Source: Alphaproteobacteria bacterium
Lineage (GTDB): Bacteria > Pseudomonadota > Alphaproteobacteria > TMED109
Direction of reading: 5' to 3'
Assembly (NCBI GenBank): GCA_022824395.1
Contig: JAJDZX010000058.1
Coordinates: 1 to 33,953 of the forward strand
DNA: 33,953 bases
The notes under the pieces are model-generated. The model was not told the origin of the DNA. It saw only the letters and a program-made list of their open reading frames with translations, and searched no databases. Each line of letters begins with the position of its first letter. The stretch's first letter is position 1. The translations under genes and the position numbers were made by a program. This document shows positions 7,041 to 21,110 of this stretch, one piece after another.

Positions 7041-7511
7041 TTGGAGGACCTGTTCGCGGCGCTCGAGGGGACGGCCCTGGCGCAAACCCTGCGGGGCTCG
7101 CGCTGGCTCTATGCCGGGGTCAACGCCGCGCACATCTTCGCGATCGCCTTGCTGGTCGGGTCCGTCATCCCGCTCAACCTGCGGCTGCTTGGCGTGTGGC
7201 GTGGTATTTCGCGCGAAGCGGTGGTGCGGGTGCTCGCGCCCGTTGCGGCGAGTGGGCTGGCCCTTGCCCTGATCACGGGACCGCTGCTGTTCTCCGTCCG
7301 GGCGCGGGAATACAGCGACGTCGGCTTCATGCAGCTCAAGCTGGCCTTCATCACGGTCGGGGTCCTGTCCGCACTTGCCCTGAGCCGGGCCCACGGGTTC
7401 CTGCTCCAGGACGCCCCGCGCGCCCACCTGGTCGGCCACGCCATCCTCTCGACGGCTTGCTGGCTGGAAGCGCTCGTCTGCGGGCGACTGATCGCGTTCG
7501 CGGGGGATTGA
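7041..7511 (+). CDS. DUF6644-like integral membrane protein
   Basis: This 156-residue protein has four or so membrane spans: around GVNAAHIFAIALLVGSVI, VAASGLALALITGPLLF, LKLAFITVGVLSALAL and AILSTACWLEALVCGRLI. It resembles small membrane proteins of the DUF6644/DUF2214 type. The proposed TTG start at 7041 lies 4 nt after the stop of the DUF6152 gene; no ATG or GTG exists in frame nearby, so translational coupling is likely. The two products probably work together at the inner membrane. Function is unknown. Confidence 0.75.
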   Translation: MEDLFAALEGTALAQTLRGSRWLYAGVNAAHIFAIALLVGSVIPLNLRLLGVWRGISREAVVRVLAPVAASGLALALITGPLLFSVRAREYSDVGFMQLKLAFITVGVLSALALSRAHGFLLQDAPRAHLVGHAILSTACWLEALVCGRLIAFAGD

Positions 7512-7792
7512 GGAGTTCGGTTCAACCGCAGGGCAACGGAAGTATTGCCCTGTCAGCAGGCGACGAAGATCCAGCGCGACCGAATCGACCGATGTCCAGT
7601 TTCACATCCAGAGCTTTGCGGCAACGGCGGCTGATTCAAGAACCTCGTTCAGTCTCTTTTTCGACCGTCCCGGCAGTCAACAGTTCGTCGCCCAAGCAAA
7701 GGCTGCCAGCGTGTCGCAACGATCCCGAAAGGTCGCCATGGCCGGAATCGAGTTGCGGCCCGCTCCCGCATTTGCCCGCCGGGAATTGTTGT

Positions 7793-8099
7793 CTACCCGA
7801 TCCGCCCTTCGAGCGTCGAAATCCAGGAGACATCAACCGCCCGCTTTGCGAGCGCCAGATCGTAGATGCGCTGCAGATTGACCCAGAAACCGGCACCATT
7901 ACCGAACAACTTTCCGAAGCGCACGGCCATCTCAGCCGTCACCGGCTGCTTCTCGTTGAGCATGTCGTAGAGCGTCTGGCGGGAAATCCCCAAAGTCTCC
8001 CGCGACAGCCGTCTTGCTCATCGCCAGCGCGGGCAGGATGTCTTCGCGCAGGATCTCTCATGGATGCACAGGATCGACAGAAGGGTGTCGCTCGACCAT
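7793..8099 (-). pseudogene. higA: higA antitoxin remnant (stop plus frameshift)
   Basis: Read from an ATG at 8099, the frame gives MVERHPSVDPVHP, then TGA at 8058-8060 exactly where the conserved Gly of the HPGEIL motif belongs, then EILREDILPALAMSKTAVA. One extra base in the CCC run at 7999-8001 then shifts the frame to ETLGISRQTLYDMLNEKQ and on through the helix-turn-helix to the end. Repairing both lesions gives a normal 101-residue HigA (XRE-type antitoxin). The ATG overlaps the higB stop by one base. A TTG at 7993 could start a fragment of about 66 residues, but it lacks the first half of the helix-turn-helix. I regard the gene as inactive. Confidence 0.85.
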
Positions 8100-8377
8100 C
8101 AGTGGTAGTCCTCAATGTTGACCTCGGTCGCACCATCTTCGGACCAACCAAAGGTGACGCGGACGTTGGCTGTCAGGCGGACAGCGTAGCGACCAGCACG
8201 GTCTCCCTTGAGTGAATGAAAGTATGAACCTGGTTAGTTCATCTGCTCCGGCCTTTCGGCTGCTTCCAGCGCCGCGAGAATGCGGCGCAGCTTGGGGATC
8301 CATTCAGTGGTGGGGCCTTGCGTCCGCCCCCTACTCCAGTAACTCCGAAGACCCCTGTGTCGAATATGCCCGATCAT
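8099..8377 (-). pseudogene. higB: higB toxin remnant (in-frame stop)
   Basis: From an ATG at 8377 the frame reads MIGHIRHRGLRSYWSRG and RRILAALEAAERPEQMN. It then meets TAA at 8234-8236 and continues in the same frame with PGSYFHSLKGDRAGRYAVRL to EVNIEDYH and its proper stop. The restored product is 92 residues, the usual HigB length, and the C-terminus matches the RelE-fold HigB ribosome-dependent mRNA interferase (LKGDRxGxYxVR, W, VxIEDYH). A single substitution (for example Leu TTA to TAA) explains the break. The truncated product lacks the catalytic C-terminal strands, so it should be inactive. Confidence 0.85.
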
Positions 8378-8456
8378 GACGATCGACTCGCTCACGCCCA
8401 GCGGGCTGTCGAGTTGCACCTTACATTTCTGCCATTCGCGAACGCAGTTCGAGATG

Positions 8457-8918
8457 GAGCCGCCTGCGCTGTGACTTGGCCGCTGTCGCGTAGGGGGTTA
8501 CGCGAAGGGGTCTGACGGCGGTACCCCACGGGTGGTGAGAAAAGCAGCGGGGTTCGAGCTTGGCCGGCGTCGGATTCGCCGGATTCCACCCCACGGCCCG
8601 ATGCGGGGCAAGATTTTCCCGGGCGGCGGACCGCGTCTGCCGAAACCACACAGATTCAAGATTTAAGGCGCGTCTTCCCTGGCGGAAGCGGTCGCCACGG
8701 CGTACGATTGAAGGTCACGACAACACCAGCCGGGCTCCCCGGAGGAAGCGCCATGGCGACCACGCAGAATCTTGTTCTCATGGGACGATGTCGACCGGCT
8801 GGGGAACCTCGAGCGGCTGCGCCTGGCCCTCGAGGCGTTGCCGGACGGGCCCCTGCTGACGGCGCTGGAGAAGCGCCGCGGCCGTGACGACTACCCGGTG
8901 CGGGCGATGTGGCGTGGC
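8457..8918 (+). mobile_element. Decayed insertion sequence, left copy
   Basis: About 300 bp of noncoding sequence is followed by the first 45 or so codons of a transposase (WDDVDRLGNLERLRLALEAL, then RGRDDYPVRAMW). This is a diverged direct repeat of 19833-20124 plus 20936-21110. Shared blocks include GTCTTCCCTGGCGGAAGCGG (8672-8691) and CCCCGGAGGAAGCGCCATGG. The reading frame is damaged between the presumed start and the WDD motif. The remnant ends 2 nt from the stop codon of the minus-strand moxR gene. The transposase resembles large DDE transposases with a WDDVDRL start; I do not assign an IS family. Confidence 0.8.
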
Positions 8919-8920
8919 GC

Positions 8921-9913
8921 TCAGGGCACCGGCATGCGTTCGAAAATCTGCCGAATGATCTCCTCGACCGATATTTCGGCCGCCTCCGCCTCGTAGGTAA
9001 TCTGCACCCGGTGGCGTAACACGTCGTGGCCGATCGACTTCACGTCGTGTGGCGTGACGTAGCCGCGGCCCTGAATGAAAGCCATGGCCTTGGCGGCCAG
9101 CGCAAGATAGATCGAGGCCCGCGGCGACGCGCCGGAGTCGATGTGGTGCGCAAGGTCTTCCAGTCCGTGCGCCGCCGGCTCGCGAGTCGCGAGCACGAGA
9201 TCGACGATGTAGTGCTTGATCTTCTCGTCGATGTAGACCGTGTCCACAACCTTGCGTGCCGCGAGGACGGCGGCGGTATCGGTGACCGCGTCCACCGGTT
9301 TCTCGGGCGTCGTCGTCGCCATGCGGTCCAGAATCTCGAGTTCCTCGCCGCGCACCGGATAGGTGATGCGCAGCTTGAGCATGAACCGGTCCGTTTGCGC
9401 TTCCGGAAGCGCATAGGTGCCTTCCTGTTCCAGTGGGTTCTGCGTCGCGAGAACCAGGAACGGCTGCGGCAGAGCAAAGCTTTCCTCGCCGATGGTCACC
9501 TGGTTCTCCTGCATCGCCTCCAGCAGTGCGCTTTGCACTTTCGCGGGTGCCCGGTTGATCTCGTCGGCGAGCACAAGATTTGCGAAAACCGGGCCCTTGC
9601 GGACTCGGAACTCGCCGGACTGAGGCTGGTAGATGAGAGTGCCGATGAGGTCAGCGGGCAGCAGGTCGGGCGTGAACTGGATGCGCTGGTAGTCGGAGTG
9701 CAGCGCCTGCGCGAGCGCTGTCGCCGCACGCGTCTTGGCGAGCCCGGGCTTGCCCTCGATTAGCACGTGGCCGTTCGCCAGCAACCCCACTAGCAGCCGC
9801 TCGAGCATGTATTCCTGGCCGACAATGGTGCGCTCCAGCGCTGTCATCAAGCGGCTGACGAAAGCACCGTGCTCCTGCACGCGCGCGTCGATCTCTCCGA
9901 CATCAAGCGGCAT
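8921..9913 (-). CDS. MoxR-type AAA+ ATPase
   Basis: This 330-residue cytoplasmic AAA+ protein has Walker A GKPGLAKT (residues 54-61), Walker B LVLADE (113-118) followed by INRAPAK, and sensor 1 ATQNP (156-160), all hallmarks of the MoxR family. MoxR proteins act as ATP-driven chaperones that work with VWA-domain partners; MxaR in methylotrophs is needed for active PQQ methanol dehydrogenase. The start at 9913 (MPLDVGEIDARV) fits the family length. The upstream in-frame extension is low-complexity and rejected. Its usual partners (DUF58, VWA, VWA) lie 3.9-8.7 kb away across a PQQ-dehydrogenase operon, also on the minus strand. It is divergent from the cytochrome gene. Confidence 0.93.
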   Translation of the reverse strand: MPLDVGEIDARVQEHGAFVSRLMTALERTIVGQEYMLERLLVGLLANGHVLIEGKPGLAKTRAATALAQALHSDYQRIQFTPDLLPADLIGTLIYQPQSGEFRVRKGPVFANLVLADEINRAPAKVQSALLEAMQENQVTIGEESFALPQPFLVLATQNPLEQEGTYALPEAQTDRFMLKLRITYPVRGEELEILDRMATTTPEKPVDAVTDTAAVLAARKVVDTVYIDEKIKHYIVDLVLATREPAAHGLEDLAHHIDSGASPRASIYLALAAKAMAFIQGRGYVTPHDVKSIGHDVLRHRVQITYEAEAAEISVEEIIRQIFERMPVP

Positions 9914-10774
9914 GGTCGTCTTTCGTCTGTTGTCTGGGATAGGTGGCCCGCGACGGCAGCTATAGCACAGCCTCCGAACCACAAACAGCGACAGGCATGG
10001 CACGCCGCACGGCGGCGAGCACGATCGGCAGTCGCCGATCAGCACCACTTGCTCTTGCCGCTCCTGACTCGCCGTCTCCCCGCCAAGTCGTTGATTCGGC
10101 CTGGCCGAAGCCGTATGGCGGCGGCGCGATTTGGCGATCCGCATGCGACGGAGGGCAGCCGGTGAAGCAGACCTACTAGCCAAGCATTCACGCGCGTAAG
10201 CCGCGGCACGGCTTCCGCGCCCGCATCATCAGCGGCGGTGGCTGGTGGGTGCAGTCGTGGCGCCGCGCCAATGGCGGAAACGCCTGTCGTCCTGGCCTTT
10301 CCCTGACCTCCCTGACCGAAACCGTATCTCCGACTTCCGCGACTCACGCGGTGCGGAGAATTTGTCCGCCTGGCGCGGCGCGGTCAGCACATGGCGGCGG
10401 CCGGTCTGGTGTTGCTATTCGCGCGGCGGCCGGCCGGCGTCGGCGGGGTGCCCACGGCTGGCAAGTGGAAAAGCGTTCTGGCAGCACTCCGGATCTTGGT
10501 CTCGGCGATCCGGACAACACGCGGGAAAATAACCGTATGGCAGCAAAGGACTGCAGAAAATACCCAAGTGGTTGTAAAAGCATCCACAAGTAGCCACATG
10601 GCCGTATAGCAGTAACCTCTCCTCTCCCAATGAAGTGCGACGGGAAATCCGGGAAATCCCAGAAGCAGGTATTGACCCCGCTTCTGGAATTAGCTACTAG
10701 GTTGATTGTTAGACGGGCAAGTGTTTCGCCATTGCGCGCTGAGTTCTTGGATTCGGGTGCAGAAGTGCTTTGCG
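9914..10774. other. Long gene-free divergent region
   Basis: This 861-nt stretch separates moxR (minus) from the cytochrome gene (plus), so it should carry both promoters. The open frames here are arginine/proline-rich and have no family resemblance. It holds a related pair CCGTATGGCAGCAA (10533-10546) and CCGTATAGCAGTAA (10602-10615), a 9-bp tandem repeat and a hairpin listed separately. I see no tRNA, small RNA or riboswitch. Confidence 0.45.
10641..10687. repeat. 9-bp tandem repeat next to an 8-bp-stem inverted repeat
   Basis: CGGGAAATC occurs twice in tandem at 10641-10658. Immediately after, CCAGAAGC (10659-10666) and GCTTCTGG (10680-10687) form a perfect 8-bp inverted repeat around a 13-nt centre. 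The site lies about 90 nt before the cytochrome start codon, so it could be a regulator site or a leader hairpin. No known motif is recognised. Confidence 0.5.
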
Positions 10775-11233
10775 ATGTCTAATGCGCGGTCGTGCCTGCC
10801 CGCCGTGTCGGATTTGCGGCCAGTGTTCGCCGCAGTCGCGTTGACGGCAGCCGCAAACGTGGCTTGTGCCGACGACGTTTCGCCGGCCGCGACAGACCGC
10901 TTTATCGACCCCCCGCTCATGACCTCCGAGGAGGTAGCGCTAGTCGATCGCGGGGCCGAACTGTACCGGCACTGTTCCGCCTGTCACGGCGGGGCGGCCG
11001 CCGGAGGTGCGGCGCCCGACTTGCGCTATGGCAGCGCCGCCGTTCACGCGGTGGATACGCTGGCTCGGGTCGTGTTCGGCGGCGGTGATCAGGGTCATCC
11101 CAGCGCGATCGAGTTCTCCGAGATTCTCGGCACGAACGAAATCGCGGCGATCCGCGCTTACGTACTCTACCAAGCACATAGCAATTACGAAGCGGAACTC
11201 TTTCTGCGCCGACCGGCCGACGTTTCTGAATAG
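10775..11233 (+). CDS. Small periplasmic c-type cytochrome
   Basis: This 152-residue protein has a signal sequence (about residues 15-32) and one haem-binding motif C67-S-A-C-H71. It is the first gene of an operon with a PQQ dehydrogenase and a Rieske protein, so it is the likely electron acceptor or shuttle for the dehydrogenase. Unusually, no Met follows the haem motif. Where class I cytochromes of this kind usually show a GMPSF loop, this one reads GHPSAIEF with His108, suggesting His/His haem ligation and a lower redox potential. The start at 10775 is inferred from the signal peptide; a longer in-frame start at 10706 exists. Confidence 0.9.
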   Translation: MSNARSCLPAVSDLRPVFAAVALTAAANVACADDVSPAATDRFIDPPLMTSEEVALVDRGAELYRHCSACHGGAAAGGAAPDLRYGSAAVHAVDTLARVVFGGGDQGHPSAIEFSEILGTNEIAAIRAYVLYQAHSNYEAELFLRRPADVSE

Positions 11234-11292
11234 CGTTGGCATCCCGCGGCTACGGCGTTCTCGATATCCACAACGTCTGGGAGACCAATTGG

Positions 11293-13035
11293 ATGAAACT
11301 CCTGAAACTCTATAGGTACCTTGCGCTAGCGGGTATCGCCATCGTGCCGTTTTCCGGCGCGCTGGCGGACTACAACTCGGTCACGGCTGATCGGTTGGCC
11401 AATCCGGAGCCGGAAAACTGGCTCATGCAGAAGGGGAACTACCTCGGCTGGATGCACAGCCCGCTCGATCAGATCAATGCAAGCAACGTCGCGAATCTGA
11501 AGGTGGCCTGGACGTTCGGTACGGGCGTAGACTCGGGCCACGAAGCACCGGCGATCGTTAACGGCCGCTACATGTACGTCACCACGCCGTACAATCAGGT
11601 CATCGCGCTCGACGCGGGTACCGGCGAGCTTCTGTGGCGGTACAAGCACCCGTTACCCGAAGATCTCAGCGTGCTTCACAACACCAATCGCGGGGTCGCG
11701 CTCTGGGGCGACATGGTGTTCACCTCGGCACTCGACGGCACGATGAACGGCCTTGACGCCAAGACCGGCGAATTGATCTGGCGCACATGGGTGGGCGACT
11801 GGAAGGTCGGCGCCTACATCACTTCCGGTCCGCTTGCCGTAAAGGGCAAAGTCATGGTCGGCCCATCGGGCGGTGAGTACGGTGTCCGCGGCTTCTTGCA
11901 AGCCTTGGATGCCGAGACGGGCGAAGAAGTGTGGCGCACCTACAGCGTGCCCGCCCCGGGCGAGCCGAACAGCGACACCTGGGCACAGGAAGGCGAATGG
12001 GCCGACTCGTGGATGCGCGGCGGCGGCAGCATGTGGATGCCCGGCAACTACGACCCAGAAGCCGATATCCTCTATTGGGGCGTCGGTAACGGCTCGCCGT
12101 GGTTCGGCGATCAGCGACCCGGCGACAACCTCTATGTCGCCTCGGTTTTGGCGATGAACCCCGACACCGGCGAGATCCTGGGTCATTTCCAGTACCACTG
12201 GAACGACTCGTGGGACTGGGCCGCCATGAATGCCCCGACCCTGCTCGACTACGAGCGCGACGGGCAAACCGTCCGCGGCCTCGTATCGCCGCAACGCAAC
12301 GGTTACATGTACTGGCTCACGCGTGAGGCCGACGGCACGATGAACTACGTCCATTCGCTTCCCTATGTGAAGCAGGACGTGTTCGCGAGCGTCGATCCGG
12401 TGACGGGCCGGCCGACCTACAACGCCGAGCACATTCCGGGAACCGGCAAGCGCGCCGAATACTGCCCGAGTCTGTGGGGCGGCAAGGACTGGCCCTATGA
12501 AGCCTACAACCCTGTTACCGGGTTGATGTACGTCCCGGCGAACGACCATCACTGCATGGCCATCGAGGGCAAGGTGATGGAGTACATCCCCGGCCAGTGG
12601 TGGGCGGGAGTCGACATCCCCGACATCGAGTTCTGGGTGGATGAAAACGCCGACTACTACGGCCAGATCCAAGCGTGGAACGTCCACACCGGCGAGCCCG
12701 CCTGGAACGTAGACTACCCCGAGTCGATGAACTGGGGCTCGATCCTGTCGACGGCCGGCGGGGTCATCTTCCTCGGCGGCACCAATGACCGCTATTTCCG
12801 CGCCTATGACGCGACGTCGGGCGAGCTGCTTTGGCAGATCCGCACCAACTCGGGGATCATTTCCCCGCCGTCATCCTACGCCATCGACGGCAAGCAGTAC
12901 ATCGCCGTGGTATCCGGCTGGGGGGTGGACGCGCGCGTCCAGAACGAGATCATCGCCAACCAGCTCGGCTGGCGTCCCGATCTCGCCGACGTGCCGAAAG
13001 GCGGTGAAGTCTGGGTCTTCACCCTGGACGACTGA
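11293..13035 (+). CDS. PQQ-dependent dehydrogenase, methanol/ethanol family-like
   Basis: This 580-residue periplasmic protein has a signal peptide ending near ALA (residues 23-25) and an eight-bladed propeller with repeated tryptophan-docking motifs such as ALDAGTGELLWRYK and ALDAETGEEVWRTY. Probable metal and catalytic residues are present: E195 (GGEYG), N266 (GVGNGSPW) and the catalytic D308 (DSWDWA). The residue two places after D308 is Ala, as in calcium enzymes; lanthanide (XoxF) enzymes carry Asp there. The adjacent Cys-Cys disulfide that precedes the NRG motif in most relatives is replaced by Leu-His (SVLHNTNRG). Substrate is unknown; an alcohol or aldehyde is likely. It lies 59 nt after the cytochrome gene and before the Rieske gene. 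Confidence 0.93.
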   Translation: MKLLKLYRYLALAGIAIVPFSGALADYNSVTADRLANPEPENWLMQKGNYLGWMHSPLDQINASNVANLKVAWTFGTGVDSGHEAPAIVNGRYMYVTTPYNQVIALDAGTGELLWRYKHPLPEDLSVLHNTNRGVALWGDMVFTSALDGTMNGLDAKTGELIWRTWVGDWKVGAYITSGPLAVKGKVMVGPSGGEYGVRGFLQALDAETGEEVWRTYSVPAPGEPNSDTWAQEGEWADSWMRGGGSMWMPGNYDPEADILYWGVGNGSPWFGDQRPGDNLYVASVLAMNPDTGEILGHFQYHWNDSWDWAAMNAPTLLDYERDGQTVRGLVSPQRNGYMYWLTREADGTMNYVHSLPYVKQDVFASVDPVTGRPTYNAEHIPGTGKRAEYCPSLWGGKDWPYEAYNPVTGLMYVPANDHHCMAIEGKVMEYIPGQWWAGVDIPDIEFWVDENADYYGQIQAWNVHTGEPAWNVDYPESMNWGSILSTAGGVIFLGGTNDRYFRAYDATSGELLWQIRTNSGIISPPSSYAIDGKQYIAVVSGWGVDARVQNEIIANQLGWRPDLADVPKGGEVWVFTLDD

Positions 13036-13062
13036 CGCGAACTGCGTTGACGCCGACTTACG

Positions 13063-13090
13063 AGGGCCGGGGCCGCAAGGCCCCGGCCCT
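13063..13090 (+). terminator. Strong GC hairpin between dehydrogenase and Rieske genes
   Basis: AGGGCCGGGGCC, loop GCAA, GGCCCCGGCCCT form a perfect 12-bp stem closed by a GNRA-type tetraloop, 27 nt after the dehydrogenase stop. No run of T follows, so it is not a classic intrinsic terminator. It may act as a partial terminator or as a 3' stabiliser that sets higher expression of the upstream genes than of the Rieske gene. Confidence 0.7.
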
Positions 13091-13117
13091 ACTACTGTGT
13101 CCAAGGAACGGGAAGAT

Positions 13118-13738
13118 ATGACGCAAGCGACAACAGAGCCGGGCGCGGAGCGGCGTCCGGCGACCCGCAGAACCGTGTTGGGTGGCCTCGCCGTCGCGGT
13201 TTGCGGATGCGGAACGGCGCAGTGGGCACCCGCCCGCGCGGAAGACGGCGAGGACGCCGCAGCCGGGCCCGATGCGCTTCCGCCGCAAATCGGCGATCGG
13301 TTCACATACATATACGGTGAGAAAATGGGCGACGTCATTCGGCCCGAGGATTTGCCGCTCGGCGGCGACCAAAAACTAGTCTATCCGATGGACCCCACTA
13401 CCGGCACGATCCGCGATGGCTCGCGCCTAAATATGATGCTGCTTGTTCGCCTCGACCCCGACACTCTCGACGAGGAAACGCGCGCCGCCGCCGCCGAGGG
13501 GGTGGTCGCCTATTCCGCGGTGTGCACCCATCACGGCTGCCCGGTGTCGATGTGGAGCAAGCGGGCGGGTACGCTTTACTGCTCGTGCCACGGAACGGAA
13601 TACGACCCGAAGGCCACGGCCCGGGTGGTGGCTGGGCCGGCACCGCGCCGCCTGCCGATGATGCCGGTCGGCATCGAAGACGGTGAAATCGTCGTTGCGG
13701 GACAATTCACATCGTGGGTCGGCAGCCAGAATACCTGA
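13118..13738 (+). CDS. Tat-exported Rieske [2Fe-2S] protein
   Basis: This 206-residue protein has an N-terminal twin-arginine signal (TRRTVLGGLAVAV, RR at 17-18), consistent with export of a folded Fe-S protein. Both Rieske boxes are intact: C136-T-H138-H-G-C141 and C155-S-C157-H158-G. Cluster ligands are C136, H138, C155 and H158; C141 and C157 would form the stabilising disulfide. The arrangement resembles periplasmic Rieske subunits such as those of bc1 or arsenite oxidase, but no such partner enzyme is near. As the third gene after a cytochrome and a PQQ dehydrogenase it probably carries electrons from that enzyme. The start at 13118 is preceded by GGGAAG. Confidence 0.92.
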   Translation: MTQATTEPGAERRPATRRTVLGGLAVAVCGCGTAQWAPARAEDGEDAAAGPDALPPQIGDRFTYIYGEKMGDVIRPEDLPLGGDQKLVYPMDPTTGTIRDGSRLNMMLLVRLDPDTLDEETRAAAAEGVVAYSAVCTHHGCPVSMWSKRAGTLYCSCHGTEYDPKATARVVAGPAPRRLPMMPVGIEDGEIVVAGQFTSWVGSQNT

Positions 13739-13767
13739 TCGTCCACCGGCAAAAGCGCAACCTACCA

Positions 13768-14604
13768 TTACCATATCTTGTCGATAGCAGCTTCGCGCAG
13801 GCGCGCGTGACGCGCTTCTCGCCGTTGGTCACGCGCCGCCTGCGCGTGTTCACGAGTCGCATCAAGAAGTTCGTTGGCTTCTTCCTCGGTCATAGGGGGC
13901 GGCGGCTCCACTGGAGCTTGCGCCTGCGCGCCGATGTCCGCTGGCGCGTCGGTTATCTGCGCTAGGCGGTGCAGCCTTTCCAGGAGCGCGCGCGTGCGAC
14001 CTGCGTGCGCCTCCCGTTCCGACGGTGATCCCACCAGTGCGCGATCGTCCTCTTCGGAGAGACCTTTGCTGTCCGTGGTGCCGGGCTCGCGCTCGCGCGG
14101 GTTGGCTCGCGGCGTCGAAACGTCGCCCTCGTACCTGCGCAAAAGCCGATGCGCGAGCTCCAGGTTGTATCGCGCATCGAGGAAATCGGCATCGAGAGCT
14201 AGAGCCTTGCGGTAGTGCGCCGTCGCCGCGCGCAACGGGCCGACGGGGTCGCGAAATGCCTGCATCGCATAAAGCGCACGTTGATACATTACGTTGCCGA
14301 GATTGTACTGACTGCGGCTTGCGAGGCGCGGATCGTCGCCGTCCAGCGCCTCGACGAACGCCTCCTGGGCCTGGACGTAGTTCCCCAGCCTGTACGCTGC
14401 CGTGCCGAGGTTGAAGCGGGCGATCGCCGAGCGCGGATTGGCGGCGGATGCCGCTTCGTAGCTCTGTCGGGCGTCCTCGTAGGCGCCGGCGTGGAAATTG
14501 GCGTTGCCGCGCTCGAGCGCATCCCGGGCGCTTTCATCCTGCGCCGTAGCGGGCACCGCAACGAGCACGGCCACGAACGCAGCTGCCAGTATCGCGCGAT
14601 TCAC
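13768..14604 (-). CDS. TPR protein, BatC/MxaK-like position
   Basis: This 278-residue protein has a signal peptide (AILAAAFVAVLVAVPATAQ) followed by tetratricopeptide helices from about residue 25 to 155 (for example GNANFHAGAYEDARQSYEAA and RFNLGTAAYRLGNYVQAQEA). A charged low-complexity tail rich in Glu, Arg and Ala follows. It is the last gene of the operon. The GTG start overlaps the preceding VWA stop in a GTGA, so it is translationally coupled; the longer frame upstream is rejected. TPR proteins in this place are typical of Bat operons, where they bind the VWA proteins in the periplasm. It ends 29 nt from the convergent Rieske gene. Confidence 0.88.
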   Translation of the reverse strand: MNRAILAAAFVAVLVAVPATAQDESARDALERGNANFHAGAYEDARQSYEAASAANPRSAIARFNLGTAAYRLGNYVQAQEAFVEALDGDDPRLASRSQYNLGNVMYQRALYAMQAFRDPVGPLRAATAHYRKALALDADFLDARYNLELAHRLLRRYEGDVSTPRANPREREPGTTDSKGLSEEDDRALVGSPSEREAHAGRTRALLERLHRLAQITDAPADIGAQAQAPVEPPPPMTEEEANELLDATREHAQAARDQRREARHARLREAAIDKIW

Positions 14605-15638
14605 GGCACTGTCGTCCGCGCTTGGCCAGAGCGCGGCCGACCCGGCCGCACGGCAAACGCTCGCTGGGCAGCATCGACAGCGAGCAGCGCGAGCGCCAGC
14701 GCCACGAACCACTGGAAGCGGTGGGCCGTTCTCTCGTCGTCCGTGTCTTCCCGAGTTTTGCGCGGCTTGCCTGCAATGCCGTCGCGGTAGAGCTGCTCCA
14801 TCACCACCGGGTCGGCACCGACGCCAAGCGCAATCCCGCCGGAGATCTCGGCGATCTGTGCCAACAGGTCGCCACGTGGCCGCGAATTTACGGGCTCTCC
14901 ACGATAGACAAGCAGCGTGCGCGCGGAGTTGCGGCCGGGTACGGGGATAAAGGCGCCATCGCCGCCGACGGCGACGGTGTGGATGGCGACTCCTCGCCCC
15001 GCGGCCTCGCGCGCGGCGTCGAGCGGCACGCTGCCGTGGTCTTCACCGTCGCTGATCATGACGATATCGGTGTACCCTTCGTCAAACACCTCGAATCCGT
15101 CGAGAATTTGCCGGATCACGGCGTCTATCCGGGTTCCCTGCACCGGACCCGCGCCCGCTTCGAGGCTGTCGAGGCGCACGTCGAAGAGGTTGTAGTCGAG
15201 CGTCGGCGGCGCGAGCATGCTGGCGCGGCCCGAGAAGCCGACCAGCGCTAGGCGGTGGCCGCCGTCGCGTCCAAGCGCCTCCGCCAGGCGGCGGGCGGCC
15301 AGTTTGGCGCGGTCGAGGCGGTTCGGCGCCGTGTCCTCCGCGAGCATGCTCAACGACGCATCGATCGCGACGACGACATCGCGCCCACGCAGCGGCGCGG
15401 CGCCTTCCTCCCGACCCCAGCGCGGTTGTGCCAAGGCGACGGCCAGACTCGCCAGTGCGGCGGCGACGAGAACGGAACCAGCCCAGCGTGAGTATCGCGT
15501 CGATTGCAGGCGGACGCGGTCAGCGAGCCGAGGTGCGGCGAACGCGCCAGCACCGCGCAGGTGACCGCTAAGGTACAGCGCGCCGATTGCAGCGACCGCA
15601 ATGCCCAGGGACGCGAACCATGGCGTGGCGAAGGTCAT
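14601..15638 (-). CDS. VWA-domain membrane protein, BatB/MxaL-like
   Basis: This 345-residue protein has N-terminal membrane spans (about residues 8-24 and 55-70), a von Willebrand factor A domain with an intact MIDAS motif D93-A-S-L-S97 and MISDGEDHG, and a C-terminal span near WFVALALALLAVDAA. The MIDAS predicts divalent-metal-dependent protein binding. Such proteins pair with MoxR ATPases. The start at 15638 lies 7 nt after the previous VWA gene's stop; the upstream extension is rejected for lack of similarity. With the other VWA gene it parallels MxaC and MxaL of methylotrophs or BatA and BatB. Confidence 0.92.
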   Translation of the reverse strand: MTFATPWFASLGIAVAAIGALYLSGHLRGAGAFAAPRLADRVRLQSTRYSRWAGSVLVAAALASLAVALAQPRWGREEGAAPLRGRDVVVAIDASLSMLAEDTAPNRLDRAKLAARRLAEALGRDGGHRLALVGFSGRASMLAPPTLDYNLFDVRLDSLEAGAGPVQGTRIDAVIRQILDGFEVFDEGYTDIVMISDGEDHGSVPLDAAREAAGRGVAIHTVAVGGDGAFIPVPGRNSARTLLVYRGEPVNSRPRGDLLAQIAEISGGIALGVGADPVVMEQLYRDGIAGKPRKTREDTDDERTAHRFQWFVALALALLAVDAAQRAFAVRPGRPRSGQARTTVP

Positions 15639-15645
15639 CGGCGCG

Positions 15646-16665
15646 CTACAAGAGCGCGCGCATGCGCGTCGCCCTGAAGACGGCGTCGAATGCGAGCAGC
15701 GCAAAAGCGAGCAAAAGGAACGGAGGGAATACCTCACGGTATCGCTGGTAATTCTCGGCGACGGTCGGGGCCGTTTCGAGCTGGTCGATGCGCTCGTAAA
15801 CGCGGCGCAGGCTGTCGGTGTCGCCGGCCGCGAAATACGCGCCGCCTGTACGCTCTGCCAAGGCCCCTAGGGTCCCTTCGTCGACATGGGAGCGGGTTTG
15901 GCCAAACGTAACTGTTCCATCGGGGTTGCGCAGGCGCTTGCGGGCCATGCCGGGTCGACCCGCACCGATGGCGTATATTCGAACGCCGAGCGCTTCCGCG
16001 GCGCGCGCCGCCTCGAGCGGTTCGATGTCGCCAGCATTGTTGCTGCCGTCCGTAAGTATGATCATGGCCTTCCCTGCGTGGCCGGACGCACGCAAGAGGT
16101 CAAGTCCAAGTGCCACCGCATCGCCGATAGCGGTTCCGTCCTCCTCGGCGTGCGGCACGATTTCTACTCGGTCGAGCAGCGTCAGCAGAGCGTCGTGGTC
16201 GCGGGTCAGCGGGGTCAGGGCATCGGCGTAGCGGGCGAAGGCGATCAGGCCGATGGCGTCTCCGCTGCGCCCGTCGCCTTCTGCCGCGTCCCCTTCGATG
16301 AAGCCGCGGAAGGTCTCCTTGACGATCTCAAGCCGGTCCACGGGCTCTCCATCGATTTCGAAATCGAGCGCGGCCATGCTGCTCGATATATCCACGACCA
16401 TCGCGATGGCGATACCCGGGCTGTATGTGCGCGTCGCTTCGACGCCCCATTGCGGGCGCGCCAACGCGATAACGCACAGCGTGACCGCCGCCGCGCGTAC
16501 CCACGGAAGTGCCCGCGCCACGCTTTCCGCTCCGGTGCGCGGGAGGCCGTCGAGCCCCGCCACCGACGGGAAGGCAAGGCGCACGGGATGCCGGTAGCGG
16601 AACGCCCAAAAGACCGCGACGGCCAGTGGCAGCAGCGCCAGCGCGTGAGGCAGGGCGAGTTTCAC
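15646..16665 (-). CDS. VWA-domain membrane protein, BatA/MxaC-like
   Basis: This 339-residue protein has two N-terminal membrane segments (about residues 5-21 and 55-70), a VWA domain with complete MIDAS D92-I-S-S-S96 and the later ILTDGSNNAGD, and a C-terminal span (FPPFLLLAFALLAFDAVF). The IALARPQWG segment before the VWA domain is typical of BatA-like proteins. The start is a GTG overlapping the previous stop in GTGA. It presumably forms a membrane complex with the neighbouring VWA, DUF4381 and TPR proteins and is acted on by MoxR. Confidence 0.92.
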   Translation of the reverse strand: MKLALPHALALLPLAVAVFWAFRYRHPVRLAFPSVAGLDGLPRTGAESVARALPWVRAAAVTLCVIALARPQWGVEATRTYSPGIAIAMVVDISSSMAALDFEIDGEPVDRLEIVKETFRGFIEGDAAEGDGRSGDAIGLIAFARYADALTPLTRDHDALLTLLDRVEIVPHAEEDGTAIGDAVALGLDLLRASGHAGKAMIILTDGSNNAGDIEPLEAARAAEALGVRIYAIGAGRPGMARKRLRNPDGTVTFGQTRSHVDEGTLGALAERTGGAYFAAGDTDSLRRVYERIDQLETAPTVAENYQRYREVFPPFLLLAFALLAFDAVFRATRMRALL

Positions 16666-17681
16666 CCGCGTTCCTGTGGTGGAAAACCGGCCGGCGCGCG
16701 CATGCCGCCATCGCCGGCGCGCTCGAAGAAGAGTGCAACTGCGTCGAGTGATTCCGCTGCCTCGCCGTCACTCGGGACGCGGCGCGCGAATTTCACCGAG
16801 TCGCCGCGGCGCAACACGTCGTAGAGCGCTGCTGCGAGTGGCGGGGCCAAGGCAATCCTCCGCGCGGAAGTTGCAATCTCCTCAGTGGTACGGTGCGGCG
16901 CGTCGACATCGAATCGCTCTTTGACATAGTGCCGCAGGATTGCGGTCATGGCGACATAGAGTTCATCGAAGCGACCCTGTTCGGGCAGACCCTGCGCACG
17001 CAGCCGCGCAAGAGCCGCCAACGCCGCGCAATGCAGTGGCTGCGGCTGGGGCTCCGCCGCCGTGCCCCGCCGTCGGAGCGCCCAAGCCGCCGCAAGCGCG
17101 CACACGCCGGCGAATGCAACCACCAACCAGTGGGTGCGGCTCGCGCGCGCCGCGCTAGGCGCGGCACCCGGCCGAGGGTCGAACGGCATGGCGATGTCAC
17201 GGGGTGCCAAAAGGTCCGCATCGGCGGGCGCGACGGAAACGACGTCGACGCGAATCTCCTCGACGCGCAGGGAGACGGCAGGGCGACCTTCTTCGCCCGT
17301 TGCGTCTTCGAACGAGAAAACCAGCGGCGGCAGTGTGAGTACCCCACTCTCCACTGTCACAGGTTCAAGGACGAGTTCGTGGAGCCATTGCCAGGTCCCA
17401 CGCGTATCGCGCGGCGCTTTCGCGTCGCGCACGACGACACGGAACGGGCCAAGGGTCCGGGATATGTCCGGCAACCTTAGCGTCGTTCCGGCGGGGGCTT
17501 CGAGGCGATGGCGCACGCGCCAGCGGTCGGTGGTGAATACCGGCCCTCCCTCAGCTTCCACCGTCACCCGATAGGCGCTGGATTCATATGTCCGCGTATA
17601 GGGTTCGCGTTCAGCCGCGGTAGCGGCGGACCACAGCATGAGGGCCGCCAGGGCCGCAAAGCGTGCACTCGGCGGGATCAT
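16662..17681 (-). CDS. DUF4381/MxaA-like membrane protein
   Basis: This 339-residue protein has a signal peptide (AALAALMLWSAATAA), a periplasmic beta-rich region to about residue 180, one membrane span (184-202, HWLVVAFAGVCALAAAWAL), and a cytoplasmic helical domain (VKERFDVDAPHRTTEEI, then DSVKFARRVPS) typical of DUF4381 and the C-terminus of BatD and MxaA. In mxa clusters MxaA sits at this same place, between the DUF58 protein and the first VWA protein, and is required for calcium insertion into methanol dehydrogenase. ATGA overlap with the DUF58 gene and GTGA overlap with the VWA gene show coupled translation. Confidence 0.85.
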   Translation of the reverse strand: MIPPSARFAALAALMLWSAATAAEREPYTRTYESSAYRVTVEAEGGPVFTTDRWRVRHRLEAPAGTTLRLPDISRTLGPFRVVVRDAKAPRDTRGTWQWLHELVLEPVTVESGVLTLPPLVFSFEDATGEEGRPAVSLRVEEIRVDVVSVAPADADLLAPRDIAMPFDPRPGAAPSAARASRTHWLVVAFAGVCALAAAWALRRRGTAAEPQPQPLHCAALAALARLRAQGLPEQGRFDELYVAMTAILRHYVKERFDVDAPHRTTEEIATSARRIALAPPLAAALYDVLRRGDSVKFARRVPSDGEAAESLDAVALFFERAGDGGMRAPAGFPPQERG

Positions 17682-18595
17682 GCCGTGGTCGGCCGGCGGC
17701 GCGCCCGAGCGCGAAACATGTGAAGCAGCGGGGGCGCCACCGGTTCGTCGGCGGACAGTTCCACCGTATCAAGGTCCATCGACCGGAATAGCCGGGCGCG
17801 CGCCGCGGCGACGGCTTCGTGACGCGCCCGCCAGGCCGCGCGGACCCTCGGGCTGGAGGAGTCGACCATGCGCAGCGCACCCGTTTCAAGGTCGTCCAGC
17901 AGGAGCAGGCCGGCATTCGGGAGTTCCACCTCGCGCGGGTCGTGAACAACGACCGGGATCGTATCGTGACGGCGACCCGTCGCACGTAAGGCAGCCTCGT
18001 AACCCTCAGCACAAAAATCGGAAACAAGGAAAACAACGGCCCGTTTCCGCACGACCCGGCGAAGGCAATCGAGCGCGCAAACGATGTCGGTTCCGCGCCC
18101 GAGCGGGCGATGGGCGAGCGCGAGGCGGAGCGCGGCGCGGGCGCGATGCCTGCCCTTTCGCGCCGGCACAATGCGCTCGACCCTGTCAGTAAACAGAATC
18201 ATGCCGACACGATCGTTGTTGGCGATGGCGCTGAGGGCCAAGGTGGCGCACAATTCGGCAGCGGCTTCGATCTTGAAACGGGTTGCGGAGCCGAAGCGGC
18301 CGGAGGCACTGACGTCGAGCACTAGCATGACCGTCAGCTCGCGCTCTTCTACGTGGCGGCTGACGAACGGACTTCCGGAACGCGCGGTAGCATTCCAGTT
18401 GATGCTGCGCACATCGTCGCCAGGCGCATATTCGCGAACGTCGGAGAATTCCGTTCCGCGTCCCTTGAAAACACTGCGGTACTCGCCTGCAAGCGTGCTG
18501 TCGACCAGGCGGCGGGCACGAACGTAAATGCGGTCTACCCGCGCCAGCGCGTCGGGGGACAGGTCCTCATCGAAGTTCCGAACCGCGGTGCCCAC
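17678..18595 (-). CDS. DUF58 protein, MxaS-like
   Basis: This 305-residue soluble protein has the DUF58 signature GRGTEFSDVREYAPGDDVR (residues 45-63) followed by SINWNATARSG, then a VWA-like fold with DVSASGRFGS (94-103). DUF58 proteins are the cytoplasmic partners that nearly always follow MoxR genes; MxaS is the methylotroph example. Here MoxR is displaced and the SUMF1-like gene precedes instead, 18 nt upstream. The start is a GTG at 18595. The product likely links MoxR to the membrane VWA proteins. Confidence 0.9.
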   Translation of the reverse strand: MGTAVRNFDEDLSPDALARVDRIYVRARRLVDSTLAGEYRSVFKGRGTEFSDVREYAPGDDVRSINWNATARSGSPFVSRHVEERELTVMLVLDVSASGRFGSATRFKIEAAAELCATLALSAIANNDRVGMILFTDRVERIVPARKGRHRARAALRLALAHRPLGRGTDIVCALDCLRRVVRKRAVVFLVSDFCAEGYEAALRATGRRHDTIPVVVHDPREVELPNAGLLLLDDLETGALRMVDSSSPRVRAAWRARHEAVAAARARLFRSMDLDTVELSADEPVAPPLLHMFRARARRRPTTA

Positions 18596-18613
18596 GGTCT
18601 CTGGCGCGTCCGC

Positions 18614-19741
18614 TCACTCCGGCGCGCGCAGGCCCGCGCCGAGCGATCGGGCCACGCGGAAACCCACCGGGTCGTTACGGGCGCCTGCCCTTTCCGCGGC
18701 GCGCCCGGCTGATCGCGCGCCGCGCGGCGGGTCCATCCAGGAGCCGCCGCGAATCGCGCGATAGGCGCAATTTCCGTCTGTCCGCGCAGCACCCGACGCG
18801 GGCGCCCCCTTGTAATCGTCGTTCCAGCAATCCTCGGTCCATTCCCAGACATTGCCGAGCATGTCGTACAGACCGAACGAATTGGGTGGAAAACTCCCGA
18901 CGGGGGATGTCCAGCCGAAGCCGTCGTCGCAGAAATGTGGCTCCCAGCGTAGTTTGTTTTGCTGCTTGCCGGTCAGGTCGTGAACATTGGCGTAAGCACA
19001 AGCCCGATCGTGCCCCTCGCCCCAGAAGCGCGCCGAAACCGTACCGGCACGGGCGGCGTATTCCCATTCGGCTTCGGATGGCAGCCGGTACGCGGCACCG
19101 GTCTTAGCGGATAGCCAGTCGGCATAGGCCCGTGCGTCTTCCCAACTGACGCACACAACTGGGTGGCCGTCATCCTGCGTAAAGCCGGGAGCGAACCAAT
19201 CGGCGGTGTCGGCGAACGTGCGCTTTCGGGCTCGATGGTCCCATATCCCGCATCCCGCGCTCTCGTGTCCGGTATCGCGCACGAAGGCGGCGAACTCGGC
19301 ACGTGTGGTTTCGTGGCGGGCGATAGCAAACGGCGCAACGATGCGCGCTTTGTGCGCCGGTCCTTCGTCTTGCCCGCGACCGCCCTCACGCTCCGGCGAG
19401 CCCATGACGAACGACCCCGGCGGCAGCGTCGCCATCTCAGGGCAATGCGGGCAGTCGCGAAACGCCGTCCCCGGCGCGGGCTCGGCGACGCGGAAGGCGC
19501 ACGTGCCGTCGCGGCAGAAGACGGCGCCGGCAGAGACGGTGGGTGCCTCTCCCCCGCAGCGGACATCGAATACCAGGAAGGCGCCCTCCCGGCGCGATTC
19601 CTCGATGATGCCAGCGGGGCAGCCCACGCTTGCCGCTGCCTGAAGGGCCTGTTCCGAAAGATCGGGATCCTTGGCGGCGGCGAGCCCCGCTGCTACCACC
19701 AACGCCGCACACAGCAGCGCGCCAGGCAAAAGTCTACCCAT
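18614..19741 (-). CDS. SUMF1/FGE-fold protein without catalytic cysteines
   Basis: This 375-residue protein has a signal peptide (LLCAALVVAAGLAAA), a Cys-bearing N-terminal segment, then an FGE-sulfatase domain from about residue 100 (CPEMATLPPGSFVMGSPERE) through LPSEAEWEYAARAG, LYDMLGNVWEWTEDCW and RGGSW to GFRVAR. In true formylglycine-generating enzymes the stretch after GGS holds two copper-binding cysteines five residues apart. Here those places are D337 and A342, so formylglycine formation is not expected. No sulfatase gene is near. It leads the operon with DUF58, DUF4381, VWA, VWA and TPR genes and has AGGA 7 nt before the ATG. It is probably a periplasmic binding or scaffold protein. 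Confidence 0.88.
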   Translation of the reverse strand: MGRLLPGALLCAALVVAAGLAAAKDPDLSEQALQAAASVGCPAGIIEESRREGAFLVFDVRCGGEAPTVSAGAVFCRDGTCAFRVAEPAPGTAFRDCPHCPEMATLPPGSFVMGSPEREGGRGQDEGPAHKARIVAPFAIARHETTRAEFAAFVRDTGHESAGCGIWDHRARKRTFADTADWFAPGFTQDDGHPVVCVSWEDARAYADWLSAKTGAAYRLPSEAEWEYAARAGTVSARFWGEGHDRACAYANVHDLTGKQQNKLRWEPHFCDDGFGWTSPVGSFPPNSFGLYDMLGNVWEWTEDCWNDDYKGAPASGAARTDGNCAYRAIRGGSWMDPPRGARSAGRAAERAGARNDPVGFRVARSLGAGLRAPE

Positions 19742-19832: not shown

Positions 19833-20124
19833 GAGCCGCCTGCGCTGTGATGCTCGGCCGTTGTCGCATAGGGGGTTGACGGCAGTACCTCACGGGGGTG
19901 AGGACAGCAGCGGGGTGCGGGCTTGGGCAGCGGCGGATTGCCGGATTCCACCCCAGGGCCCGATGCGGGCCCGGATGTTCCCGGGCCGCGGACCGCGCCT
20001 GCGGAATCGCACGCAGATTCAGGATTTAAGGGGCGTCTTCCCTGGCGGAAGCGGTCGCCATGGCGTACGATTGACCATCACCACAACAAGCAACCGGGCT
20101 CCCCGGAGGAAGCGCCATGGCGAC
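19833..20124 (+). mobile_element. Decayed insertion sequence, right copy, first part
   Basis: It aligns in the same orientation with the start of the remnant at 8457, from GAGCCGCCTGCGCTGTGA onward to GCGCCATGGCGAC, with many substitutions and small gaps. It shares GTCTTCCCTGGCGGAAGCGG at 20035-20054. At 20124 it is cut by an IS5-type insertion; the sequence resumes near 20936. Confidence 0.85.
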
Positions 20125-20139
20125 TAGTGGTCGTTAACA

Positions 20140-20897
20140 CTAACGCAGTGCCTCGACAATGAATGCGAAGAGGATGAACCCGAGGAACACGGCGTCAAGC
20201 TTGTCGAAGCGCGAGAAAACCCGTCGGAAGCCCTTGAGATGGCGGAAGAGCCGCTCGACCTCGTTGCGCCGCTTGGGCATCTCCCGGTCGTATTCCCAGG
20301 GGTCCACGCGGGTTCGCCACGGCGGCACGACCGGGGTGAAGTCCAGGTCGAGGGCGAGCTGGCGGGTTTCGTCGCCCTCGTAGGCGCGGTCCATGATCAA
20401 CGCCGGACGGCCCGGCTGCCGGCCCCGGCGACGCAGCAGCTTCCGGCCTTCCGGGGCGTCATGCTCCTGGCCGGGGGACAGCGCGAACGTCAGAGCCGTT
20501 CGAGCATCCGCGGCAACCAGATGAATCTTGGTGGTCCAGCCGCCGCGGGACCTGCCGATGGCCTGCGGACCGTTTTTTTTCGCGCCCCGGTACCGTCCGG
20601 ATGGACCTTCACGATGGTGCTGTCCAGCGACACCGCCTCCAGCTTGATGCGCACGATCTGCTCGCGCTGCAGGTGCTCGAACACCCGGTCCAGCACCCCG
20701 CTCTTCGACCAGCGGTTCATCCGGGTATAAATCGTGTGCCAGTTACCGAACCGCGCCGGCAGCCTGCGCCACTTGCAGCCATGCTCGGCCACATACAGGA
20801 TCGCGTTCAGCACCTGCAGGTTCGACAGGCTGACGTTGCCGCGCTGCACCGGCAGGTGCGGCGCCAGCCGCTCGTACTGAGCTTCCGTAAGCTCCAT
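20140..20897 (-). CDS. IS5-family DDE transposase made by -1 frameshift
   Basis: The first frame starts at 20897 (MELTEAQYERLAPHLPVQRG) and covers the N-terminal DUF4096-like region and first catalytic Asp (VSLDSTIVKVHPDG). At the A8 run it can slip back by one base and join the second frame, which reads KKNGPQAIGRSRGGWTTKIH, LVAADARTALTFALSPGQEH, IMDRAYEGDE and RRNEVERLFRHLKGFRRVF. The fused protein would be about 252 residues with all three acidic residues in place. The frame is open from the slip to the TAG at 20140. Unshifted translation ends near 20490 and lacks the second Asp and the Glu. Confidence 0.88.
20573..20580 (-). promoter_or_regulatory. A8 slippery run for programmed -1 frameshifting
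   Basis: Eight consecutive A on the minus strand, read in the zero frame as CGA AAA AAA ACG. A -1 slip gives AAC GGT and continues the transposase. This is the usual mechanism in IS5/IS427-type elements with two frames. Confidence 0.8.
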
Positions 20898-20935
20898 CCG
20901 GAAACCATAGCACAGCGATGCCCATTAGTGCTAAC

Positions 20936-21110
20936 ACGCCCCAGGCAGAATCTATTGATCTCGTGGGACGATGTCGACCGGCTGGGGGACCTCGAGCGGC
21001 TGCGCCTGGACGCTCGAGGCGCTGGTGCGAGAGTTGCGGCGCAACCCGGCGCTGCTGCAGCTGTGCGGGTTCGACGCGCTCGGCCGGCAGGGCGCAGGCA
21101 TCATTCGATA
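20936..21110 (+). mobile_element. Decayed insertion sequence, right copy, second part
   Basis: It resumes the interrupted remnant with CAGGCAGAATCTATTGATCT, encoding QNLLISWDDVDRLGDLERLRL. After a one-base shift and an internal deletion it jumps to LEALVRELRRNPALLQLCGF, DALGRQG, a later transposase segment not kept in the left copy. From about 21110 to 21340 no clear element or gene is recognised. Confidence 0.75.

Follow-up and report, generated by a model that had tools for sequence, protein, structure and literature searches.

MxaACKL has been described as inserting calcium into calcium methanol dehydrogenase (PMC6028718), and the NorQ/NorD pair, a MoxR ATPase with a VWA protein encoded beside a redox metalloenzyme, is described as a metal-insertion system (PMC13036017, PMC9976466). 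MoxR/VWA pairs also work on respiratory enzymes, since RavA-ViaA is reported to act with complex I and fumarate reductase (PMC3893208, PMC10585395). Bat/Cmd operons have been tied to aerotolerance and envelope phenotypes and their function is described as unclear (PMC5700661), and a 2024 ISME J article describes lanthanide-type XoxF as working without mxaRSACKL-type machines (PMC11845868). Among the open-licence PMC titles and abstract openings listed, none describes a PQQ dehydrogenase-Rieske pair accompanied by MoxR/VWA genes. No account of how mxaRSACKL-type genes put metal into PQQ dehydrogenases is known to us.

The window analysed here, the whole 33,953-nt stretch of DNA from an Alphaproteobacteria bacterium, carries ten genes at 8921-19741 (Table 1). 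The initial annotation described these genes correctly, and signature motifs are present in the MoxR, VWA, DUF58, cytochrome and Rieske proteins. Because they are long open frames with profile matches, the block is not a product of chance. Probable starts were picked by eye for MoxR (9913), the cytochrome (10775), the dehydrogenase (11293), the Rieske protein (13118), TPR (14604) and VWA2 (15638). Of the 4-nt overlaps claimed for the minus-strand genes, those of VWA1 with the DUF4381-like gene (16662-16665) and of the latter with DUF58 (17678-17681) are present, and that of TPR with VWA2 holds if the GTG at 14604 is taken as the TPR start, but VWA1 and VWA2 are separated by 7 nt and DUF58 and the SUMF1-like gene by 18 nt. 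No tRNA or Rfam match was found in the window, and no relative of it among the viral contigs searched.

Table 1. The ten-gene block and its surroundings, in window coordinates
Feature	Position	Strand	Characteristics
Earlier left flank blocks	25-629 and 1820-4086		conserved in G311:C68
Conserved left flank, a DUF6152 gene with its neighbour	6364-7511	+	90.9% identical to G311:C68
G312-like stretch	7719-8230	+	87.9% identical to DNA ~0.5 kb past the 3' end of G312's other dehydrogenase
Left IS remnant	8456-8920	+	leader plus opening codons of a transposase gene, DUF772 type
moxR	8921-9913	-	AAA_3 and lid, 330 aa; Walker A/B
Cytochrome c	10775-11233	+	CxxCH motif, CSACH
PQQ dehydrogenase	11293-13035	+	TIGR03075 at 535 bits; calcium-type DxA motif, WDWA; vicinal Cys pair absent
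Rieske 2Fe-2S protein	13118-13738	+	Tat-like leader; CxHxxC and CxCH
TPR protein, BatC-like	13768-14604	-	profile match
VWA2, BatB-like	14601-15638	-	DxSxS, DASLS
VWA1, BatA-like	15646-16665	-	DxSxS, DISSS
DUF4381-like protein, MxaA position	16662-17681	-	leader and membrane stretch judged by eye
DUF58 protein	17678-18595	-	VWA-like DxSxS
SUMF1/FGE-sulfatase-domain protein	18614-19741	-	Pfam domain; best NCBIfam match PvdO, below cut-off
Right IS remnant	19833-20124 and 20941-21024	+	direct orientation; identity to left remnant 83% over 308 nt and 89% over 84 nt
IS4/5-family element	20125-20940		interrupts right IS remnant
Right conserved flank (flavin monooxygenase-like gene)	22967-25113	+	93.5% identical to G311:C68

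The cluster resembles mxaRSACKLD in its kinds of genes (MoxR, DUF58, an exported membrane protein, two VWA proteins and TPR) beside a DxA PQQ dehydrogenase, and had been called mxaRSACL-like. As a statement of descent this has to be given up. When the window proteins were compared by phmmer with the ORFs of the mxa region of G283, matches at E<1 were confined to the dehydrogenase and MoxR (137 bits), which rules out the operon as a member of the mxa subfamily; the MoxR score falls below those against nearly all other MoxR proteins compared. Unlike the mxa client, the enzyme has a Rieske partner and is part of a clade that lacks the vicinal Cys pair, and MxaI is missing from the genome. Gene order and the DUF58 protein, 42% identical to its Parabacteroides counterpart, match the Bat operon (MoxR-DUF58-X-BatA-BatB-BatC-BatD), and on these sequence comparisons the window operon is Bat-like. 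The Parabacteroides genes are annotated as AAA, DUF58, hypothetical, VWA, VWA, TPR and BatD, which we take to be a Bat (Bacteroides aerotolerance) operon. The order DUF58-X-VWA-VWA-TPR is kept in the window, but where Parabacteroides and a paralogous operon on contig C31 have moxR at the head, here the enzyme genes separate it from its partners, a split that is indeed unusual among the systems compared. The window further differs in its additional SUMF1-like gene and in a block that also takes in the genes for the PQQ dehydrogenase, the cytochrome and the Rieske protein; no separate BatD gene was found in it.

Individual family assignments vary in strength. The BatA, BatB and BatC models match window proteins, all below their cut-offs, and BatD has no match among the window proteins searched against Pfam. 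The DUF4381 label is weak for the window protein alone (E=0.039) and holds for its family, since in an alignment of nine members eight match DUF4381 (best E=3.5e-6) and four match BatD weakly (best E=3.6e-4). The SUMF1-like protein has the Pfam domain of formylglycine-generating enzyme (E=2.2e-67) but not its catalytic Cys pair near the C-terminus: no Cys occurs in the segment after GGSWM (GGSWMDPPRG...), presumably the place where FGE carries that pair.

The dehydrogenase scores 535.2 bits against a TIGR03075 cut-off of 480.05 and keeps E195, N266, D308, R335, W248 and W543, which we assume to form the metal/PQQ site. The columns that hold the vicinal-disulfide CC in methanol and ethanol dehydrogenases read VL here; of the 85 clade loci, L085 is gapped at those columns and the other 84 all lack CC. 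The third motif letter is D in 61/85 loci and A in 24/85; the window enzyme is DxA and not lanthanide-type DxD. On a tree made by a quick method, which leaves out L085, L095 and L106 as fragments, the Ala rows and the window enzyme, two truncated Ala rows aside, form a single clade of 23 (SH-aLRT 100), with DxA arising once within the larger clade. A Rieske gene is the commonest neighbour of the enzyme (70/80 loci). PqqE is present with a score over its cut-off, and the MxaI small subunit (PF02315) occurs in one of 289 genomes of the class (G283) and not in G000. The alcohol-oxidation modules of Alteromonas pTE101a and Paracoccus p429813 likewise encode a 60% identical enzyme followed by a Rieske gene, but have a hypothetical gene after it and an aldehyde dehydrogenase (in Alteromonas also a sigma-54 regulator), whereas the window pair has neither an adjacent aldehyde dehydrogenase nor a sigma-54 regulator; no MoxR/VWA gene is annotated in the examined stretch of these modules.

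The block has borders on both sides. Truncated copies of one transposase gene, assigned to its family through the Pfam match of a third copy at G000:C126, stand as direct repeats that enclose just the ten genes, and the similarity of the left remnant stops at the moxR stop codon. The stretch shared with G312 narrows the left junction to 8230-8456. A chimeric contig is unlikely, as both flanks match one G311 locus and the left flank with the G312-shared stretch reaches to ~700 nt from moxR. These borders enclose the ten genes as a single unit, so the split of moxR from its partners need not mean separate histories. In the close relative G311 the same chromosomal site, between flanks 89.5-93.5% identical, is occupied by another dehydrogenase-Rieske pair, whose enzyme is 55% identical to that of the window, with a different MoxR-DUF58-BatA/VWA system, which suggests from sequence that enzyme and machine belong together. 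The bounded block and this second set support the earlier proposal that a MoxR/DUF58/VWA/TPR machine accompanies a PQQ dehydrogenase that is not a methanol dehydrogenase.

Related genomes repeat the linkage. Of the 31 strong MoxR genes in 11 genomes, 12 have a TIGR03075-type gene within 10 kb (eight over the cut-off, four C31-type below it) where 1.23 are expected. This ratio is inflated because these genomes were picked for kinship with the window genes, and rows from the genus are not independent of one another; if the genus counts as one, it becomes 5/12. In 63 other genomes of the class, counted by eye, 2/54 MoxR genes are near a PQQ dehydrogenase (G078:C22 and G246:C298; 0.87 expected), in a set without G283's true mxaR, which is PQQ-linked but below the limit of that search. 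The genus's own dehydrogenase and its MoxR are both present in G075, G309, G310, G311 and G312 and both absent from G000 and G286. The C31 operon, MoxR-DUF58-(DUF4381-like)-VWA-VWA-TPR, a second one in the same genome, converges on a PQQ dehydrogenase-like gene with a cytochrome c, an arrangement fully spanned in G309, G311 and G312 and partly in G286; its enzyme is divergent, being 33% identical, below the TIGR03075 cut-off and altered at aligned site columns. On a MoxR tree without the fragment L146, the duplicates L180 and L181 and several MoxR genes, the PQQ-linked label requires eight changes, at least seven by well-supported branches, a number raised by two contig-end rows scored as unlinked (G310_C96 and G075_C33, whose contigs end just past the operon).

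The initial annotation also proposed that the machine is dedicated to this dehydrogenase clade, and had fixed beforehand what would speak against it: a clade mostly without the operon, or an operon mostly without a PQQ dehydrogenase. Both were found, and strict dedication was abandoned. MoxR/VWA-system genes occur in the examined flanks, several of them short, of 6/80 dehydrogenase-Rieske loci, and none was counted in the other 74. The six are L060 and L062 (mxa clusters), L091 (a GATase/BatA-like fragment), L108 and L114 (by length the same contigs as G309:C59 and G312:C17, with the same MoxR C-terminal part) and L125 (MoxR-DUF58-transglutaminase, probably unrelated); L053, with a response regulator only, and L100, with a TPR at 21 bits, were left uncounted. 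A scan with the window proteins alone gave MoxR at 3/80 loci and missed the mxa clusters, which the wider scan recovered. Conversely, in genomes beyond the genus and other than G125, none of 19 operons found by their match to the window DUF58 (nine of the class and ten of the phylum, four further phylum matches being left out) has a PQQ dehydrogenase above 80 bits in the examined stretch, some stretches being short. G125:C18, the closest MoxR relative at 80% identity, has no PQQ dehydrogenase in the 20 kb examined. The closest dehydrogenases in the class search, in G131 (61%) and G233 (58%), come from genomes with one strong MoxR each, neither near a PQQ gene; that of G131 falls with a widespread type on the tree, from which that of G233 is absent.

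We think there is about an even chance that the block is an IS-bounded, exchangeable cassette in which a calcium-type periplasmic PQQ alcohol dehydrogenase, with Rieske and cytochrome c acceptors, is matured or kept active by a Bat-type MoxR machine. A cytosolic MoxR ring and DUF58 would spend ATP to pull on the membrane assembly of VWA1, VWA2, TPR and DUF4381-like proteins, whose periplasmic domains may open or hold the apo-enzyme during entry of metal and PQQ, much as NorQD does for nitric oxide reductase; electrons would leave PQQ through the Rieske protein or the cytochrome for the respiratory chain. NorQD has an integral membrane enzyme as its target, whereas the client here would be a soluble periplasmic enzyme reached via membrane VWA proteins. 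The gene content, the borders, the two enzyme-plus-machine sets at one site and the repeated linkage in related genomes are observed. A link between enzyme and machine within this lineage is supported by the single IS-bounded block, the second full set at its site and other MoxR systems adjoining other PQQ dehydrogenases, and we infer from it that the machine acts on this dehydrogenase and that this action would be metal and PQQ loading. The cassette is further favoured by the 7/7 co-occurrence in the genus, the 12/31 linkage, the C31 operon, PqqE, the changes on the MoxR tree and the mxa cluster found upstream of the DxA dehydrogenase-Rieske pair in two of three Methylobacterium loci; the 0/19 and 74/80 counts, G125:C18, G131, G233, the divergent C31-type enzyme, the kinship-chosen genomes and the Bat phenotypes elsewhere weigh against it.

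Those same counts, with the aerotolerance and envelope phenotypes of Bat/Cmd operons (PMC5700661), would suit a composite IS element that happened to carry an ordinary alcohol-oxidation pair and an ordinary Bat-type envelope or stress operon without functional link. We regard this as possible but somewhat doubtful, because the alternative cassette has an equal functional make-up from distantly related genes, the genus-cassette dehydrogenase and MoxR come and go together, and in these genomes other PQQ dehydrogenases too have MoxR systems nearby. It is improbable that the machine serves some other chain partner (the Rieske cluster, the cytochrome, a membrane electron-transfer complex or the SUMF1-like protein) instead of the dehydrogenase active site. 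The clients of RavA-ViaA (PMC3893208, PMC10585395) and the frequency of the Rieske gene beside the enzyme fit such a reading, but the C31-type and G125 linked stretches have a cytochrome c and no match to the window Rieske protein, so the dehydrogenase is the part common to the linked systems. That the operon is a true mxa member, a calcium-insertion machine specific to calcium-type enzymes, is very unlikely: the DxA motif, the similar gene set and the mxa clusters near this enzyme type in Methylobacterium agree with it, and the phmmer result, the lack of MxaI and the lanthanide-type DxD of most other MoxR-linked dehydrogenases do not. The rule that DxA (calcium) enzymes have an activator and DxD (lanthanide) enzymes have none is ruled out, because DxA arose once, only L060 and L062 of 24 other DxA loci have activator genes and most MoxR-linked enzymes are DxD.

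Extending the cassette reading, we tentatively propose, as a possibility short of even odds, that MoxR/DUF58/VWA systems of distant types (mxa, Bat, BatA-GATase and BatD-bearing) are interchangeable activators of PQQ dehydrogenases, lanthanide-type included, that travel as enzyme-plus-activator cassettes. The window would then record one exchange, in which a predicted lanthanide-type enzyme with its activator, as in the sister lineage, and a predicted calcium-type enzyme with another activator occupy one site.

A locus with two natural cassettes that differ in both enzyme and MoxR/VWA system makes a clean test case for activators, and Bat-like operons gain a candidate class of periplasmic clients. 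If activators are interchangeable, the view of lanthanide enzymes as independent of such machines, stated for XoxF (PMC11845868), would be widened, and a PQQ dehydrogenase and its MoxR-type activator would be exchanged together as cassettes at one chromosomal site.

All ten genes that the initial annotation placed in one block (moxR, cytochrome c, PQQ dehydrogenase, Rieske, TPR, two VWA, DUF4381-like, DUF58 and SUMF1-like) were found as described by gene calls and profile matches. The window is the entire contig C19 of the source genome (G000), which has 133 contigs, 3.75 Mb and 92.85% completeness. The dehydrogenase scores 535 bits against a TIGR03075 cut-off of 480, and its closest solved structures are quinoprotein ethanol and quinohemoprotein alcohol dehydrogenases, to whose C-terminal cytochrome domain (in the quinohemoproteins) the separate window cytochrome is similar. 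Metal and PQQ residues are conserved, the metal motif is WDWA, and the vicinal Cys pair is absent. G000 also encodes PqqE, with a score above the model cut-off. The pqqE gene was looked for in five genomes of the genus, and in every one it lies ~19-21 kb from another MoxR gene (G000:C118, G075:C15, G309:C80, G311:C80 and G312:C4).

The block is bordered by a long direct repeat, with 83% identity over 308 nt and 89% over 84 nt, and similarity in the left copy reaches as far as the moxR stop codon. The right copy is split by an IS4/5-family element. A third copy, at G000:C126, has no such insert and reads as the start of a DUF772 transposase gene (E=7e-9). The whole ten-gene set, from moxR to the SUMF1-like gene, is therefore enclosed by two truncated transposase-gene copies in direct orientation, an arrangement that, as read from sequence, resembles a decayed composite transposon. 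Outside the block, the DNA matches contig C68 of the same-genus genome G311 at 89.5-93.5% identity, compared with 86.8% between these two genomes across 17.2 kb of an independent locus. In place of the ten genes, G311 carries another set between the same flanks, one also present in G075: a different dehydrogenase, which has a DxD motif and shares 55% identity with the window enzyme, together with Rieske, MoxR and DUF58 genes and a long BatA/VWA/GATase-like frame. Clear sharing of the flanks is limited to G311, as G312 has one 0.5-kb stretch and G075 only AbiE-like DNA at 65%. We hold this anatomy, and the cassette nature of the block, with high confidence. Near their genus cassette, G311 and G075 have DNA resembling the window's AbiEi/AbiEii pair (65-71%), and the metal-uptake-like genes ~5 kb past the right IS remnant could affect metal supply.

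Features of the window and of the second operon in the source genome
Feature	Contig	Coordinates	Remark
Flank matching G311:C68, left	window	25-629; 1820-4086; 6364-7511	
Direct repeat, left copy	window	8456-8920	
Ten-gene block	window	8921-19741	
Direct repeat, right copy	window	19833-20124; 20941-21024	
IS4/5-family element	window	20125-20940	
AbiEi/AbiEii-type toxin-antitoxin pair	window	21390-22930	between right IS remnant and right flank
Flank matching G311:C68, right	window	22967-25113	
Metal-uptake-like set	window	26022-32825	ABC ATPase (by eye), FecCD permease, TonB receptor, ZnuA-like binding protein
Second operon (locus L136)	G000:C31	4768-13346	MoxR-DUF58-(DUF4381-like)-VWA-VWA-TPR, convergent with a DxD-type divergent PQQ dehydrogenase-like gene and cytochrome c

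The initial annotation proposed that the block is an activation machine dedicated to this dehydrogenase clade, a claim refuted by the very distribution it named as decisive. Among the best 80 of 504 dehydrogenase relatives (one genome per species), a Rieske gene lies within the fetched stretch at 70 loci and MoxR/VWA-system genes at only 6, one of which (L125) is probably unrelated; thus the enzyme mostly functions without a linked machine. Seen from the other side, searches with the window DUF58 brought up operons in 9 more class genomes (E<=1e-30, 289 searched) and 14 more phylum genomes (E<=1e-40, 398 searched) beyond the genus and G125, and none of the 19 fetched operons has a PQQ dehydrogenase above 80 bits in its stretch. 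Nor does G125:C18, which holds the closest relative of the window MoxR. Strict dedication was rejected. Clustering of the 86 listed loci, window included, with family names assigned by reading sequences, gave as recurrent dehydrogenase neighbours a small exported protein (28), molybdenum aldehyde oxidase large (28) and small (16) subunits, a sigma-54 regulator (17), aldehyde dehydrogenase (13) and an outer-membrane protein (12). The exported protein (~130 aa, beta-sandwich-like by eye) is encoded directly downstream of the dehydrogenase, for example at L039, L056 and L057; none was found at the window locus. On annotated Alteromonas and Paracoccus plasmids, the enzyme's neighbours are Rieske, a hypothetical gene and aldehyde dehydrogenase. 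One contig, L112, is filed as a Klebsiella pneumoniae MAG, a label that appears wrong given that its dehydrogenase clusters with Binatota and Myxococcota records.

MoxR systems do adjoin PQQ dehydrogenases in some genomes. In 11 genomes picked as holders of window-gene relatives, 12 of 31 strong MoxR genes lie <=10 kb from a TIGR03075-type gene, where gene counts and genome sizes predict 1.23 (5 of 12 with the genus collapsed to one), and two further MoxR genes sit at contig ends with the partner gene at another contig's end. Elsewhere in the class, 63 genomes that encode a PQQ dehydrogenase gave 2 of 54 against 0.87 expected, a contrast that is only indicative because the choice of genomes favours linkage. 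The dehydrogenase gene exceeds the TIGR03075 cut-off in eight of the 12 linked cases; the other four are C31-type genes, whose PQQ use is less certain because they are below cut-off, 33% identical to the window's and altered at aligned site columns. The C31-type operon and dehydrogenase-like gene are also complete in G309, G311 and G312 and partial in G286. In a 43-row MoxR tree the PQQ-linked label takes 8 changes, 7 of them forced by well-supported branches, part of this being due to two contig-end rows.

The linked systems are of differing kinds: Bat-type in the window and the G000:C31 copy, BatA-GATase in the genus cassette, MoxR-DUF58-VWA-TPR-BatD-like in G197 (same strand as Rieske-dehydrogenase; BatD-like below its cut-off), and two systems in G125, of which one lacks a MoxR of its own. 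At two of three Methylobacterium loci, in M. oryzihabitans and M. aquaticum DSM 16371 (L060, L062), an mxa cluster lies upstream of a DxA dehydrogenase-Rieske pair; none lies upstream of the M. ajmalii pair, and in M. aquaticum 22A the pair is plasmid-borne with no mxa genes within 16 kb. On a short Lautropia MAG contig (L091), a GATase/BatA-like fragment is convergent with the dehydrogenase.

The metal motif is lanthanide-type DxD at 61 of 85 listed clade loci and calcium-type DxA at 24, and the DxA rows with the window form a single clade of 23 (SH-aLRT 100, quick tree method). The window cassette thus puts a predicted calcium-type enzyme at a site occupied in G311 by a predicted lanthanide-type one. 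Of the enzymes linked to MoxR, the window's, MxaF of G283 and those of the two Methylobacterium pairs are the only ones with DxA; the rest are DxD. PMC6028718 places MxaACKL in calcium insertion, and PMC11845868 describes XoxF as doing without these genes. The mxa membership first suggested for the window operon did not hold: it is Bat-type, but with moxR displaced and BatD unsettled.

The genus set, a dehydrogenase and its own MoxR 8.2-8.5 kb apart, occurs in G075, G309, G310, G311 and G312, and neither gene is found in G000 or G286; its enzyme and activator genes are thus co-present or co-absent in 7 of 7 genomes. This pattern, from few genomes, all drafts, is the chief argument for a functional link between machine and enzyme in this lineage, to which we give even chances. 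In NorQD, according to PMC13036017 and PMC9976466, a MoxR protein works with a VWA partner to drive the insertion of metal, and PMC5700661 places the VWA domain of a Borrelia BatA-like protein in the periplasm. By analogy with these two systems, the window machine would transmit the work of cytosolic ATP to a periplasmic apo-enzyme.
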